Origin: Gillisia sp. Hel1_33_143
GTDB lineage: Bacteria > Bacteroidota > Bacteroidia > Flavobacteriales > Flavobacteriaceae
Reading direction: 5' to 3'
NCBI RefSeq assembly: GCF_900104765.1
Contig: NZ_LT629737.1
Location: 2,170,001 to 2,234,000, forward strand
Length of the DNA: 64,000 bases
Shown: positions 37,069 to 44,492 of the stretch, piece by piece
How the letters are laid out: every line of letters begins with the position of its first letter
Position numbering within the stretch: the first letter of the stretch is position 1
Made by a program: the position numbers and the translations under genes
Notes under the pieces: generated by a model
The model's database searches: none
What the model was told of the DNA's origin: nothing
What the model saw: only the letters and a program-made list of their open reading frames with translations

Positions 37069-37464
37069 ATGGGAATATTTGATAAGATCTTTAAGAGCGA
37101 TAATGAAGAAAAGAATGTTGAGAAAAAACAAATTTCATGGATTGAGATAAAGCAAATGGAAATGTTAGACGAAATTGTGGAGGCAAGTAAACATCACCCA
37201 GTTGCAATATTAAAACACTCTACCAGCTGTGGAATTAGTAGGATGGTCCTACGTCAATTTGAAGCAACTTATGATATAAGAGAAGAAGATATGAAATTGT
37301 ATTTTCTTGACCTTTTAAGTTATAGAGAGATCTCCAATAAAATTGCTTCTAGATTTAATGTGCCTCACCAAAGTCCGCAACTCATTGTTTTAAGTGAAGG
37401 AAAGGTTATTTACGATGCTTCTCATAGTGAGATCTCTGCAGATAAACTTAAGTCTATTGCGTAA
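37069..37464 (+). CDS. ytxJ: Bacillithiol system redox-active protein YtxJ
   Basis: The 131-aa monothiol bacilliredoxin-like protein has a thioredoxin fold. The active-site segment is HSTSCGISRMVLRQFE (about 46-61) with one Cys and Ser in place of the second Cys, as in YtxJ. Further family marks are FLDLLSYREISNKIASRFNVPHQSPQ with the cis-Pro region and LIVLSEGKVIYDASHSEIS. It probably reverses bacillithiolation or reacts with bacillithiol mixed disulfides in the cytoplasm. bshB1 at 52300 shows that the cell makes bacillithiol. A 52-aa disordered ORF follows at 24 bp. Confidence 0.92.
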   Translation: MGIFDKIFKSDNEEKNVEKKQISWIEIKQMEMLDEIVEASKHHPVAILKHSTSCGISRMVLRQFEATYDIREEDMKLYFLDLLSYREISNKIASRFNVPHQSPQLIVLSEGKVIYDASHSEISADKLKSIA

Positions 37465-40578: not shown

Positions 40579-40586
40579 TAACTTTG
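40579..40586 (+). promoter_or_regulatory. Putative -7 box (TAACTTTG) of the thioredoxin-apbE operon
   Basis: TAACTTTG matches TAnnTTTG about 58 nt before the thioredoxin ATG. A second match, TAAATTTG, is at 40630-40637, too close to the start unless the mRNA is nearly leaderless. Neither has a TTG at the -33 distance. Confidence 0.4.
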
Positions 40587-40644: not shown

Positions 40645-41085
40645 ATGAGAAAGTATGTAATTTTTTGTCTTTTGCTTATGGGAACTACCTTCAGTATAAA
40701 TGCTCAAGAGTGGCAATTAGATCTTAAAACTGCAGAAGAGACTGCATCAAAAGATCATAAAAATATCATTTTAGTTTTTCAGGGTTCAGATTGGTGTGCA
40801 CCATGTATGAAACTTGAAAAGCAAGTTTGGAGTACTGATGAATTTAAGGCATATGCAAAATCCAATTTTGTAATGTTGAAAGCAGATTTTCCTAAGAGAA
40901 AGAAAAATGCACTTTCTGAAGCGCAACAAGCTAAGAACGATAAACTTGCACAAAAATATAATTCAGAAGGGTATTTTCCGTTAGTAGTTATACTGAATGA
41001 AAATGGAAAAGTTCTGGGTAAAACAGGGTATAAGAATATAACGCCTTCAGAATACATCAAACATTTGAATTCTTTTAAAGGATAG
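40645..41085 (+). CDS. Periplasmic thioredoxin-family protein
   Basis: The 146-aa protein has a signal peptide (MRKYVIFCLLLMGTTFSINA, cleavage near 20) and a thioredoxin fold of the DUF255/Thioredoxin_7 type. The redox motif is DWCAPC (Cys51, Cys54), preceded by NIILVFQGS and followed by MKLEKQVW. The long insertion with PKRKKNALSEAQQAKN and the cis-Pro region YFPLVVIL are typical of this subgroup. It is the first gene of a four-gene operon with ApbE, DUF4266 and DUF3570 proteins. Its likely role is keeping cysteines of an exported partner reduced; the two cysteines of the DUF4266 lipoprotein are an obvious candidate (inference). Confidence 0.9.
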   Translation: MRKYVIFCLLLMGTTFSINAQEWQLDLKTAEETASKDHKNIILVFQGSDWCAPCMKLEKQVWSTDEFKAYAKSNFVMLKADFPKRKKNALSEAQQAKNDKLAQKYNSEGYFPLVVILNENGKVLGKTGYKNITPSEYIKHLNSFKG

Positions 41086-41090
41086 TTCTT

Positions 41091-42074
41091 TTGAGAAAAT
41101 TAATTACCATAACGTTTGTGCTTTGTATTGCTATAAGTACTAATGCTCAAAACATTCAGAAGCGTACCTTAAAACTTATGGGTAGTAGGTTTGATATTAC
41201 GGTGGTGGCTGAAGATTCTACTAAAGCTGTTTTTTATATTGATCTTGCAATAGAGGAAATGACGCGAATAGAAAAGCTTATATCTTCTTGGGATCCAAAT
41301 TCTCAAACTTCAGAGATCAATAGGAGTTCTGGAATAAAACCAGTAAAAGTTGATAAAGAGCTTTTTGATCTTATAGCGAGATCAATTGCAATCTCTAAAC
41401 TCACAGATGGTGCTTTTGATATAAGTTACGCTTCTATGGATAAGATCTGGAAGTTTGACGGTTCTATGAAAACAATGCCTTCAGAAGCAGATATTAAGGC
41501 TTCTGTTTCTAAGGTTGGATACCAGAATATAATTTTAGATAAAGAAAACACTACGGTTTTTCTAAAAATCCCTGAAAGCAAGATAGGGTTTGGAGCTATA
41601 GGCAAAGGTTACGCTGCAGATAAGGCAAAAGCGCTGTTGATGTCTAAAGGTGTTTCTGCCGGTATTATTAATGCAAGTGGAGATATGAATACCTGGGGAA
41701 AACAACCAAATGGAGATGAATGGAAGGTTGCAATTACAAATCCGTTAAATAAAAATAAAGCGTTCGCATTGTTACCAATTAATGAAGGTGCAGTTGTAAC
41801 TTCTGGTAATTATGAAAAGTATGTGAATTTTAATGGAAAGCAATATACGCACATCATAGATCCAAGAACTGGATATCCTTCCACCGGAATTATTAGTGCT
41901 ACGGTGTTTGCTCCTAAAGCGGAATTGGCAGATGCTTTGGCAACGTCTGTATTTGTGATGGGGAAAGAAGTTGGTTTAAATAGGATCAATCAATTACCTC
42001 AAATAGAATGTATCATAATTGATGATAAAGGAAATATATTTACTTCAGAAAATATTAAAATAGATAAAAAATGA
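41091..42074 (+). CDS. apbE: Exported FAD:protein FMN transferase (ApbE family)
   Basis: The enzyme transfers FMN from FAD to a Thr of an exported protein with Mg. The 327-aa product starts at a TTG (41091) with AAAGGA upstream, and has a signal peptide (RKLITITFVLCIAISTNAQ). Family motifs are LMGSRFDITV (about 29-38), LISSWDPNSQTSEINR, DGAFDISYASMDKIWKF, GFGAIGKGYAADKAKALL, the glycine-rich NASGDMNTWG and the metal region THIIDPRTGYPS. The lipobox seen in many ApbE proteins is absent. It lies 5 bp after the thioredoxin gene and overlaps the next gene by 4 bp. No standard flavin acceptor (RnfG/NqrC/FMN-bind) is near, so the target is unknown. Confidence 0.93.
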   Translation: MRKLITITFVLCIAISTNAQNIQKRTLKLMGSRFDITVVAEDSTKAVFYIDLAIEEMTRIEKLISSWDPNSQTSEINRSSGIKPVKVDKELFDLIARSIAISKLTDGAFDISYASMDKIWKFDGSMKTMPSEADIKASVSKVGYQNIILDKENTTVFLKIPESKIGFGAIGKGYAADKAKALLMSKGVSAGIINASGDMNTWGKQPNGDEWKVAITNPLNKNKAFALLPINEGAVVTSGNYEKYVNFNGKQYTHIIDPRTGYPSTGIISATVFAPKAELADALATSVFVMGKEVGLNRINQLPQIECIIIDDKGNIFTSENIKIDKK

Positions 42075-42283
42075 TCAAGAGAATTTTATTCTGTTGTTTG
42101 ATTGCGGGCTACTTTAGCTCCTGTACTGCGGTTAAGGAGTATGAAAAGGTAAAAATCAACGATCCAGACATGGTATTATCAACTAAAGGCGTTGATAGAT
42201 TTGAAACAAATTTCCAGGCGTATAGAGAAGCTGCGGCAGGAGCTAATGGCGGAAAGACCGGTGGTGGTTGTGGTTGTAATTAA
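42071..42283 (+). CDS. DUF4266 small lipoprotein with C-terminal CxC
   Basis: This 70-aa protein consists of a lipoprotein signal (ILFCCLIAGYFSSC, Cys18), a central helix-like segment (VDRFETNFQAYREAAAG, about 41-57) and a glycine-rich C-terminus GGKTGGGCGCN with Cys67 and Cys69. This matches DUF4266. The mature protein is only about 50 residues, so it may act as a carrier or metal/flavin/thiol site rather than an enzyme. The start codon overlaps the apbE stop by 4 bp (ATGA), so translation is coupled. Thr63 in the tail is a possible flavinylation site; the SGAT-type consensus of known acceptors is absent, so this is speculation. Confidence 0.88.
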   Translation: MIKRILFCCLIAGYFSSCTAVKEYEKVKINDPDMVLSTKGVDRFETNFQAYREAAAGANGGKTGGGCGCN

Positions 42284-42292
42284 AATTTTAAA

Positions 42293-43609
42293 ATGAAAAA
42301 TAATTTATTGATAGGTTTGTTCGTGATCTCTTCTTCAATTGCTTTTGCACAAGATGGTGATTCTACAAAAACTTATAAGAAGAGAGTATTAGAGAATACA
42401 GAAGTAGATTTTTTAGCCAGTTATTATACGCAGGAAGGTGATAATGCTGCTGTAAGTGGTGGTATAGGTACAGAGCATCTTACCAATGTTACTCCCACTG
42501 TTGTGGTTTCTATACCTTTAAATGCAGATGATGTATTAACTATAGATGGAGAGGTATCTGCTTATACTTCGGCCTCGTCTAGCAATGTTAATCCATTTGA
42601 TGGAGATCAGGCTGCAGATCCATTTGTGGCATCTACGGGAGCATCTTCTAGCGATACCTGGACAAATCTTACAGGAACCTTCACCCATAACTCAGATGAT
42701 AGGAATGATATTTGGAGTGCTAAATTAGCGGTTTCTACAGAATATGATTATTTCTCACTAGGTTTAGGTGGAAGTTATACAAAGCTTTTTAATGAGAAGA
42801 ATACAGAAGTTAGTGTTACTGCTAATGTCTATTTAGACAATTGGAAAACTATTTACCCCTATGAACTTAGACCTTTTGAAGATGGAGGTAGAGGCTTAAC
42901 CGACGGACTTTTTAGAAGATATACAATTACAGGAAATCAAAATTATAATCCAGATTTTGTTGCTTTAGATGGAACTTCAAGAAATTCATATTCTGTAGGA
43001 ATTGGGTTCTCTCAAATACTTTCCGAAAGATTTCAGGGTTCTTTGGCTTTAGATTTTGTTCAACAAGAAGGGCTCCTTTCTACACCTTTCCAAAGAGTAT
43101 ATTTTAAAGATGTGGAAGATTCATTTATAGAGAATTTTCAATTAGCAGATGATATTGAAAGATTACCAGACACTAGATTTAAGGTTGCAGTAGGAGGTAG
43201 GTTAAATTATTATTTAAATGAGACCTTTGTAGTTAGAACTTATTATAGATACTACACAGACGATTGGGGAATTAGATCCAACACCGCAAGTATTGAAGTA
43301 CCTATTAAAATAGCTCAAAAATTCACGCTCTATCCATCTTATAGATATTATGATCAAACTGCGGCAGATTATTTTGCTCCTTATGAAGAGCATGTGTCCA
43401 CAGATGAGTTCTATTCTTCAGATTATGATTTGTCTGAATTCAGTGCAAACCAATATGGATTTGGAGTGACTTATACTGATATTTTTACACAATTTCATCT
43501 TTGGCAATTTGGGTTAAAAAGTATAGATCTGAAATATCACTATTACGAAAGAAATACCGGATTGCAAGCAAACATCATAGCAGCAGGAATTAAATTTGTT
43601 CTAGACTAA
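42293..43609 (+). CDS. DUF3570 outer-membrane beta-barrel protein
   Basis: This is a 438-aa protein with a signal peptide (MKNNLLIGLFVISSSIAFAQ). The rest alternates aromatic and polar residues with many short strand-like stretches (YFSLGLGGSYTKLF, FVVRTYYRYYTDDWG, FTLYPSYRYYDQT, DLKYHYYERN) and ends AAGIKFVLD. This fits a beta-barrel of the DUF3570 family of unknown function. Early loops contain an odd Ser/Ala/Asp-rich stretch (about 95-130). It is nine bases after the DUF4266 gene and ends the operon, with a terminator 22 bp on. It may form the outer-membrane partner of the small lipoprotein. Confidence 0.9.
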   Translation: MKNNLLIGLFVISSSIAFAQDGDSTKTYKKRVLENTEVDFLASYYTQEGDNAAVSGGIGTEHLTNVTPTVVVSIPLNADDVLTIDGEVSAYTSASSSNVNPFDGDQAADPFVASTGASSSDTWTNLTGTFTHNSDDRNDIWSAKLAVSTEYDYFSLGLGGSYTKLFNEKNTEVSVTANVYLDNWKTIYPYELRPFEDGGRGLTDGLFRRYTITGNQNYNPDFVALDGTSRNSYSVGIGFSQILSERFQGSLALDFVQQEGLLSTPFQRVYFKDVEDSFIENFQLADDIERLPDTRFKVAVGGRLNYYLNETFVVRTYYRYYTDDWGIRSNTASIEVPIKIAQKFTLYPSYRYYDQTAADYFAPYEEHVSTDEFYSSDYDLSEFSANQYGFGVTYTDIFTQFHLWQFGLKSIDLKYHYYERNTGLQANIIAAGIKFVLD

Positions 43610-43631: not shown

Positions 43632-43663
43632 AAAAATCCGACTCAGTAATGGGTCGGATTTTT
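43632..43663. terminator. Terminator between the DUF3570 gene and the MBL-fold lipoprotein gene
   Basis: Arms AAAAATCCGAC and GTCGGATTTTT flank a loop of about 10 nt in a convergent gap. Confidence 0.88.
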
Positions 43664-43685: not shown

Positions 43686-44492
43686 TTATCCTTTTGTTGG
43701 ATACCACTCTAACAATTCAACGGTAATATCTTTGTTCTCTTTATTAACCAATTCCTTAAATTTTTCTACATCAGCTAGTCCGTCTTTACCTCTATAGTGG
43801 TAAGGGATGACTTTCTTAGGTTGGAAAGCAAGTACTCCTTTTGCAGCATCTTCAACCGTCATTGTGTAAGGTAAGTTCATAGGTACCAGTGCTACATCAA
43901 TATTCTTAAGGTTTCTCATCTCTGGAATATCTTCAGTATCTCCGGCTATATAAAGTCTTTGGCCATCTTTCTCCAAAACATAGCCATTTCCTCTCCCTTT
44001 AGTATGCATCGCGTCTGGACTTTCCGGCAAATTATACATAGGAATTGCAGTAATATTGAATCCCATAAAGTCTTGAGAATCTCCATTATTCATTACTATA
44101 AGATTTTTTTGAAGATCTTGAGGTAATTTTTCCTGAACTGCTTTAGGTACTATGATCTTTGTTTCTCCTAATTGTAAAGCCTTTAAAGTTTCGGCCTCCA
44201 TATGATCTTGATGAATATCTGTGATCAATACAAAACTTGGTTTAGCTTGACCTTCAAAACCGGCAGCTCCTCCTACTGGATCTGTATAGATAATAGTTTT
44301 ATCCCATAGAATAACTGATGTCGCATGAGATATTGGAGTAATATTTATACTAGCCTTATTCTCCATTTCATCTTGACGTGTTTCCGCCGGAGTCATAACT
44401 TCAGAACTCATTTCTTCAGTAGAGTCTTTAGCTTCATTTTTACAAGAAGTGAATACGGCTGCTAGAGCCAAAATTGTAACTATTTTCTTCAT
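43686..44492 (-). CDS. MBL-fold metallo-hydrolase, lipoprotein
   Basis: This is a 268-aa exported MBL-fold hydrolase with a lipobox (AVFTSC, Cys17). The metal motif is TDIHQDHM (91-98): Asp92 stands where the first His of HxHxDH usually is, with His94, Asp96 and His97 present. Later parts include LYIAGDTEDIPEM and the final ligand in VIPYHYRGKDG. It belongs to the same broad group as the cytoplasmic MBL enzyme at 19446 (UPF0173-like), but is exported. Substrate unknown. It is transcribed alone, divergent from the trehalase gene across 161 bp. Confidence 0.87.
   Translation of the reverse strand: MKKIVTILALAAVFTSCKNEAKDSTEEMSSEVMTPAETRQDEMENKASINITPISHATSVILWDKTIIYTDPVGGAAGFEGQAKPSFVLITDIHQDHMEAETLKALQLGETKIIVPKAVQEKLPQDLQKNLIVMNNGDSQDFMGFNITAIPMYNLPESPDAMHTKGRGNGYVLEKDGQRLYIAGDTEDIPEMRNLKNIDVALVPMNLPYTMTVEDAAKGVLAFQPKKVIPYHYRGKDGLADVEKFKELVNKENKDITVELLEWYPTKG

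Follow-up and report, generated by a model that had tools for sequence, protein, structure and literature searches.

A gene cluster encoding the FAD:protein FMN transferase ApbE together with exported thiol proteins was described as the DsbD/DUF3570 flavinylation type (Méheust et al., 2021, eLife; PMC8238504). Among the DsbD-type clusters with ApbE, DUF3570 was found in 227, a PF13899 thioredoxin in 183 and DUF4266 in 221, and 316 four-gene clusters were found without a linked DsbD (PMC8238504). For Chlorobium luteolum it was shown that the cognate ApbE flavinylates DUF3570 and that the flavinylation is abolished only when both [S/T]GA[S/T] sites are mutated (PMC8238504). In the published test a signal-less DUF3570, located mostly in the cell pellet, was still flavinylated (PMC8238504). 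Moreover, a CxC motif was noted in DUF4266, for which redox cycling and electron supply from DsbD were suggested, and a role of the clusters in iron assimilation was proposed from their linkage to VIT1 (PMC8238504).

The operon described here lies in a stretch of 64,000 nucleotides, in the following called the window, from the complete 3.48 Mb genome of Gillisia sp. Hel1_33_143 (NZ_LT629737.1, positions 2,170,001 to 2,234,000). The operon belongs to the published DsbD/DUF3570 type, an already known system, and probably encodes a module for extracytosolic electron transfer without heme. It starts with an exported thioredoxin-like protein of 146 residues (Thioredoxin_7, DsbH-like; Pfam Thioredoxin_7, 8e-15) with a WCAPC active site, encoded at 40645..41085 on the plus strand like all features of the operon. 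This is followed by ApbE (41091..42074; 327 residues; Pfam ApbE, 9e-85), which has a TTG start and a signal peptide without lipobox, by a DUF4266 lipoprotein of 70 residues (42071..42283; Pfam DUF4266, 2e-19) with the lipobox FSSC and the C-terminus GGGCGCN, and by a DUF3570 protein of 438 residues (42293..43609; Pfam DUF3570, 1e-41). An intrinsic terminator of 14 pairs is located 3' of the operon (43632..43663). The original prediction was made from the DNA sequence by reading, and much of it is borne out: the ORF coordinates confirm the four genes with their spacings of 5, -4 and 9 bp, the Pfam matches secure the family assignments of all four products, and signal sequences are visible by eye at the N-termini of all four, in agreement with an exported flavin/thiol module. 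Its suggestion of a new redox module does not hold, as the same gene cluster was published in 2021 (PMC8238504). As in the published clusters, the genes for ApbE, DUF3570, a PF13899 thioredoxin-like protein and DUF4266 are adjacent, DUF4266 carries a C-terminal CxC, and the window shows the form of the 316 clusters without linked DsbD. The operon differs from the DsbD-linked clusters in that the DsbD of this genome, which has its own thioredoxin domain, lies at a distance of about 68 kb; given these 316 clusters, linkage is not obligatory. The present analysis adds a predicted barrel topology that places both FMN sites outside, a relaxed form of the site motif, and recurrent Rieske and RND genes as neighbours. 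The barrel topology and both types of neighbours are absent from the main text of PMC8238504, and no earlier description of the outer-side topology of both FMN sites, of the relaxed motif or of the Rieske/RND neighbours was found in the literature searched.

Some further observations concern the surroundings of the operon. A candidate promoter of the pattern TAnnTTTG at 40579-40586 was rejected, since the pattern is no more frequent in the window than expected by chance. A metallo-beta-lactamase-fold lipoprotein (43686-44492, minus strand; Lactamase_B_3, 1e-19) is encoded convergently and has the terminator region in common with the operon. Upstream at 37069-37464 (plus strand), the window encodes the monothiol bacilliredoxin BrxC (Pfam, 4e-36), pointing to the use of bacillithiol in this bacterium.

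In the FMN-bind proteins NqrC and RnfG, ApbE transfers FMN to a serine or threonine of an exported electron carrier, and such a system is also present in this genome. Our operon differs in having no FMN-bind domain, its carrier being a predicted outer-membrane barrel. The genome encodes two ApbE proteins and one FMN_bind protein, NqrC. The operon proteins do not match the FMN-bind domain PF04205, NqrC being the only match in the genome, and the absence of an FMN-bind, RnfG or NqrC gene near the operon is confirmed. The second ApbE gene adjoins nqrA-F (Nqr names from reading of the sequences), in which NqrC carries the motif SGAT. A main role of the operon ApbE in serving Nqr was therefore rejected, and the possibility of a distant ApbE target raised by the original prediction is largely answered, as the second ApbE has its own substrate beside it. 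The operon had furthermore been regarded as lacking a known acceptor, with the small lipoprotein as flavinylation candidate; however, the acceptor lies inside the operon, because DUF3570 is the demonstrated ApbE substrate in C. luteolum (PMC8238504). DUF4266 is small, lipid-anchored and encoded beside ApbE, which would suit a flavin carrier, but the motif [ST]GA[ST] is found in none of 120 DUF4266 proteins, the window's protein included, so that flavinylation of the lipoprotein itself is highly improbable. Since nqr has its own ApbE and DUF4266 lacks the motif, the operon ApbE most likely serves DUF3570.

Two predicted FMN sites were located in the window's DUF3570 by motif and alignment, TSAS at residues 92-95 (codons 42566..42577, plus strand) and TGAS at residues 115-118 (codons 42635..42646, plus strand). 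Both lie at the conserved positions. The first site is relaxed, with the Gly of [S/T]GA[S/T] missing, the second has the strict form, and neither has the -3 Asp that belongs to the canonical D-x-x-[ST]-G-A-[ST], which distinguishes the window's protein from the published motif. Among distant DUF3570 members the canonical D-x-x-[ST]-G-A-S is found at the corresponding position. All 81 close relatives in an alignment have [ST]SAS at site 1; at site 2 Gly and Ser are kept in all of them and Ala in 80, and the stretch between the two sites is variable. Across 121 loci the main site forms are TSAS (98), SGAS (84), SSAS (34) and TGAS (18); a strict GA site is absent in 25 proteins of these loci, and in many relatives both sites are relaxed. 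For another ApbE substrate it was shown that replacement of the Asp has a minor effect and that the exchange of Gly to Ala approximately halves the modification (PMC12052999). Accordingly, the relaxed sites are probably modified as well. Three loci (L054, L060, L065) have degenerate site forms only. Degenerate motifs such as ASAS and SSPS occur in these three and also in L160 and L168, with ApbE still encoded alongside.

Flavinylation of DUF3570 was shown in a homologue; the operon, the barrel, the side of the sites and their conservation have computational support. An AlphaFold2 model built with 81 sequences predicts DUF3570 to be a 16-strand barrel with a mean pLDDT of 89.3 and a pTM of 0.82. 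No sequence relative of DUF3570 was found in the PDB. The model matches outer-membrane barrels in Foldseek and VIA-align, and OmpG aligns over residues 30-437 in the same N-to-C order (Z 17), which supports the outer-membrane barrel proposed originally. The protein has a signal peptide, its predicted strands are antiparallel and even in number, the turns next to the termini are short, and solved barrels are matched. The turns on the termini side have an average length of 6 residues and the opposite loops of 19. In outer-membrane barrels the long-loop side is usually extracellular. The loop of residues 93-121 lies on the long-loop side and contains site 2 completely and site 1 for the most part, although it is modeled at low confidence (residues 116-118 below 50). 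Moreover, 20 of the 23 positions conserved to at least 90% among 33 diverse proteins lie on the long-loop half (p = 0.009), among others E150, D152, Y153, D182, R295, R319, Y321 and D323. From the long loops opposite the termini, taken with the usual rule, we infer that both FMN sites probably lie on the extracellular face of the membrane. Alternatively, the FMN loop might lie in the barrel lumen or be reached from the periplasm; a substrate in the periplasm, for instance a metal ion, would then be reduced and no electrons would leave the cell. The thioredoxin and probably DUF4266 are periplasmic, ApbE acts in this compartment, and the CusA/B and VIT1 proteins encoded near some of the loci move metals across membranes, all of which would suit a periplasm-facing flavin; the position of both sites and most conserved residues at the barrel end opposite the termini argues against it, and we give this possibility about one chance in four.

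The location of DUF4266 was judged from its sequence. The lipoprotein surface-export signal of Capnocytophaga, K-(D/E)2 (PMC5080379), is absent from DUF4266 in 140 of 140 cases, K-E-x-E being common, and because this known signal is absent DUF4266 probably faces the periplasm. The cysteine-bearing tail pointed out originally is universal, as all 120 DUF4266 proteins end in CxC. The model of the lipoprotein is disordered except for the signal and one short helix (pLDDT 58). The WCxxC of the thioredoxin is kept in most of 118 relatives. The solved structure nearest to the operon thioredoxin is chlamydial DsbH (2ju5, 4e-18), which, like DsbD, stands for reducing thiol chemistry in the periplasm; the operon protein differs from it in remaining below the DsbH NCBIfam cut-off (102 of 190 bits).

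These features suggest a model in which ApbE would attach FMN, probably in the periplasm and ahead of barrel folding, to two serines of DUF3570 (predicted S95 and S118). The flavinylation of the signal-less pellet protein (PMC8238504) indicates that the modification seems to be independent of a membrane-folded barrel, and ApbE could act on the DUF3570 precursor in the periplasm. The barrel would then reside in the outer membrane, where loop 2, which carries both FMN sites, would point to the cell exterior. Electrons from the cytoplasm would pass via the DsbD encoded elsewhere in the genome to the periplasmic thioredoxin and from there to the CxC-bearing tail of the lipoprotein DUF4266. This tail might have the flexibility and length needed to extend into the barrel and to hand the electrons on to the FMNs, which would reduce an acceptor outside the cell, the leading guess being a ferric or cupric ion. 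We infer the order and direction of this electron flow, the reach of the tail and the acceptor. The complete path, from DsbD via thioredoxin and the DUF4266 CxC to outward-facing FMNs on the DUF3570 barrel, is regarded as somewhat favored.

A more specific reading concerns the outer membrane itself. The membrane is too thick for electrons to pass directly to an FMN on its outer side, so the model would require the CxC tail to extend into the barrel. It is conceivable, though on balance doubtful, that DUF3570 is a heme-free outer-membrane electron conduit, in which the lipid-anchored tail enters the 16-strand barrel from the periplasmic side and reduces two covalent FMNs at the extracellular loop. 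In porin-cytochrome conduits of the MtrCAB type, a barrel passes electrons across the outer membrane. The comparison is one of function only, i.e., of a barrel that would carry electrons across the outer membrane, and no kinship is claimed; the difference is that the window's operon encodes no heme protein, and thiols and FMN would replace the hemes. If true, this conduit would mean that many Bacteroidota have, in thiol/flavin chemistry, an alternative to multiheme porin-cytochrome complexes. Two covalent flavins that face outward would provide a simple cytochrome-free electron route through the outer membrane, which might serve to reduce metals.

The genomic neighbours were surveyed at 140 loci (60 diverse and 80 close). 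Counted as loci, which are not independent events, and set against no background rate, CusA-family RND metal-efflux genes are near 24 of them, VIT1-family genes near 13 (a linkage noted earlier in PMC8238504), cytochrome b561 near 6, DsbD fused to a thioredoxin is beside the operon in 6 (matches of more than 400 residues only), and a Rieske lipoprotein is found in 13. In 11 of these 13 loci the Rieske gene precedes the operon by 4-130 bp on the same strand, and in the other 2 it falls within the operon span. The electron-transfer neighbours Rieske and b561, the adjoining DsbD fusions and the metal transporters CusA and VIT1 count for the electron-transfer model. The CxC lipoprotein might also be mainly a copper or iron carrier, with the flavin barrel as metal reductase or import partner and the thioredoxin keeping thiols reduced. 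The CusA and VIT1 counts and the presence of CusB 16-175 bp upstream on the same strand in 11 loci would fit such a carrier, as does the iron assimilation already proposed (PMC8238504). However, most loci, including the window, have no adjoining metal gene, and a CxC of two cysteines would suit a redox dithiol as well, so that a carrier role is considered unlikely. The Rieske loci are L044, L049, L050, L162, L038, L040, L045, L046, L054, L160, L171, L043 and L118; the assignment was confirmed by Pfam in four of these loci, plus L043, and in the protein of L054 the usual ligands of the cluster are gone.

Finally, the co-occurrence of the families across genomes, for which the original prediction had suggested a search, is tight. 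Of 296 Bacteroidota genomes, 86 encode DUF3570 and 83 encode DUF4266, and all 83 are within the 86 (hypergeometric p about 1e-70, with the relatedness of the genomes ignored). The pair is thus present in 28% of one Bacteroidota sample, and a sample from the window's class has DUF4266 in 11%. All four genes are present on a single strand and ordered as in the window in 70 of 80 loci around close DUF3570 relatives, 66 of them exactly and 4 with one additional thioredoxin or ApbE match, and in these 80 loci a spacing of -4 between ApbE and DUF4266 is by far the commonest. In another genome (G201:C45:32553-40488) several DUF3570 matches follow one another, and a single open frame of 832 residues contains two of them, which might represent a tandem barrel fusion.
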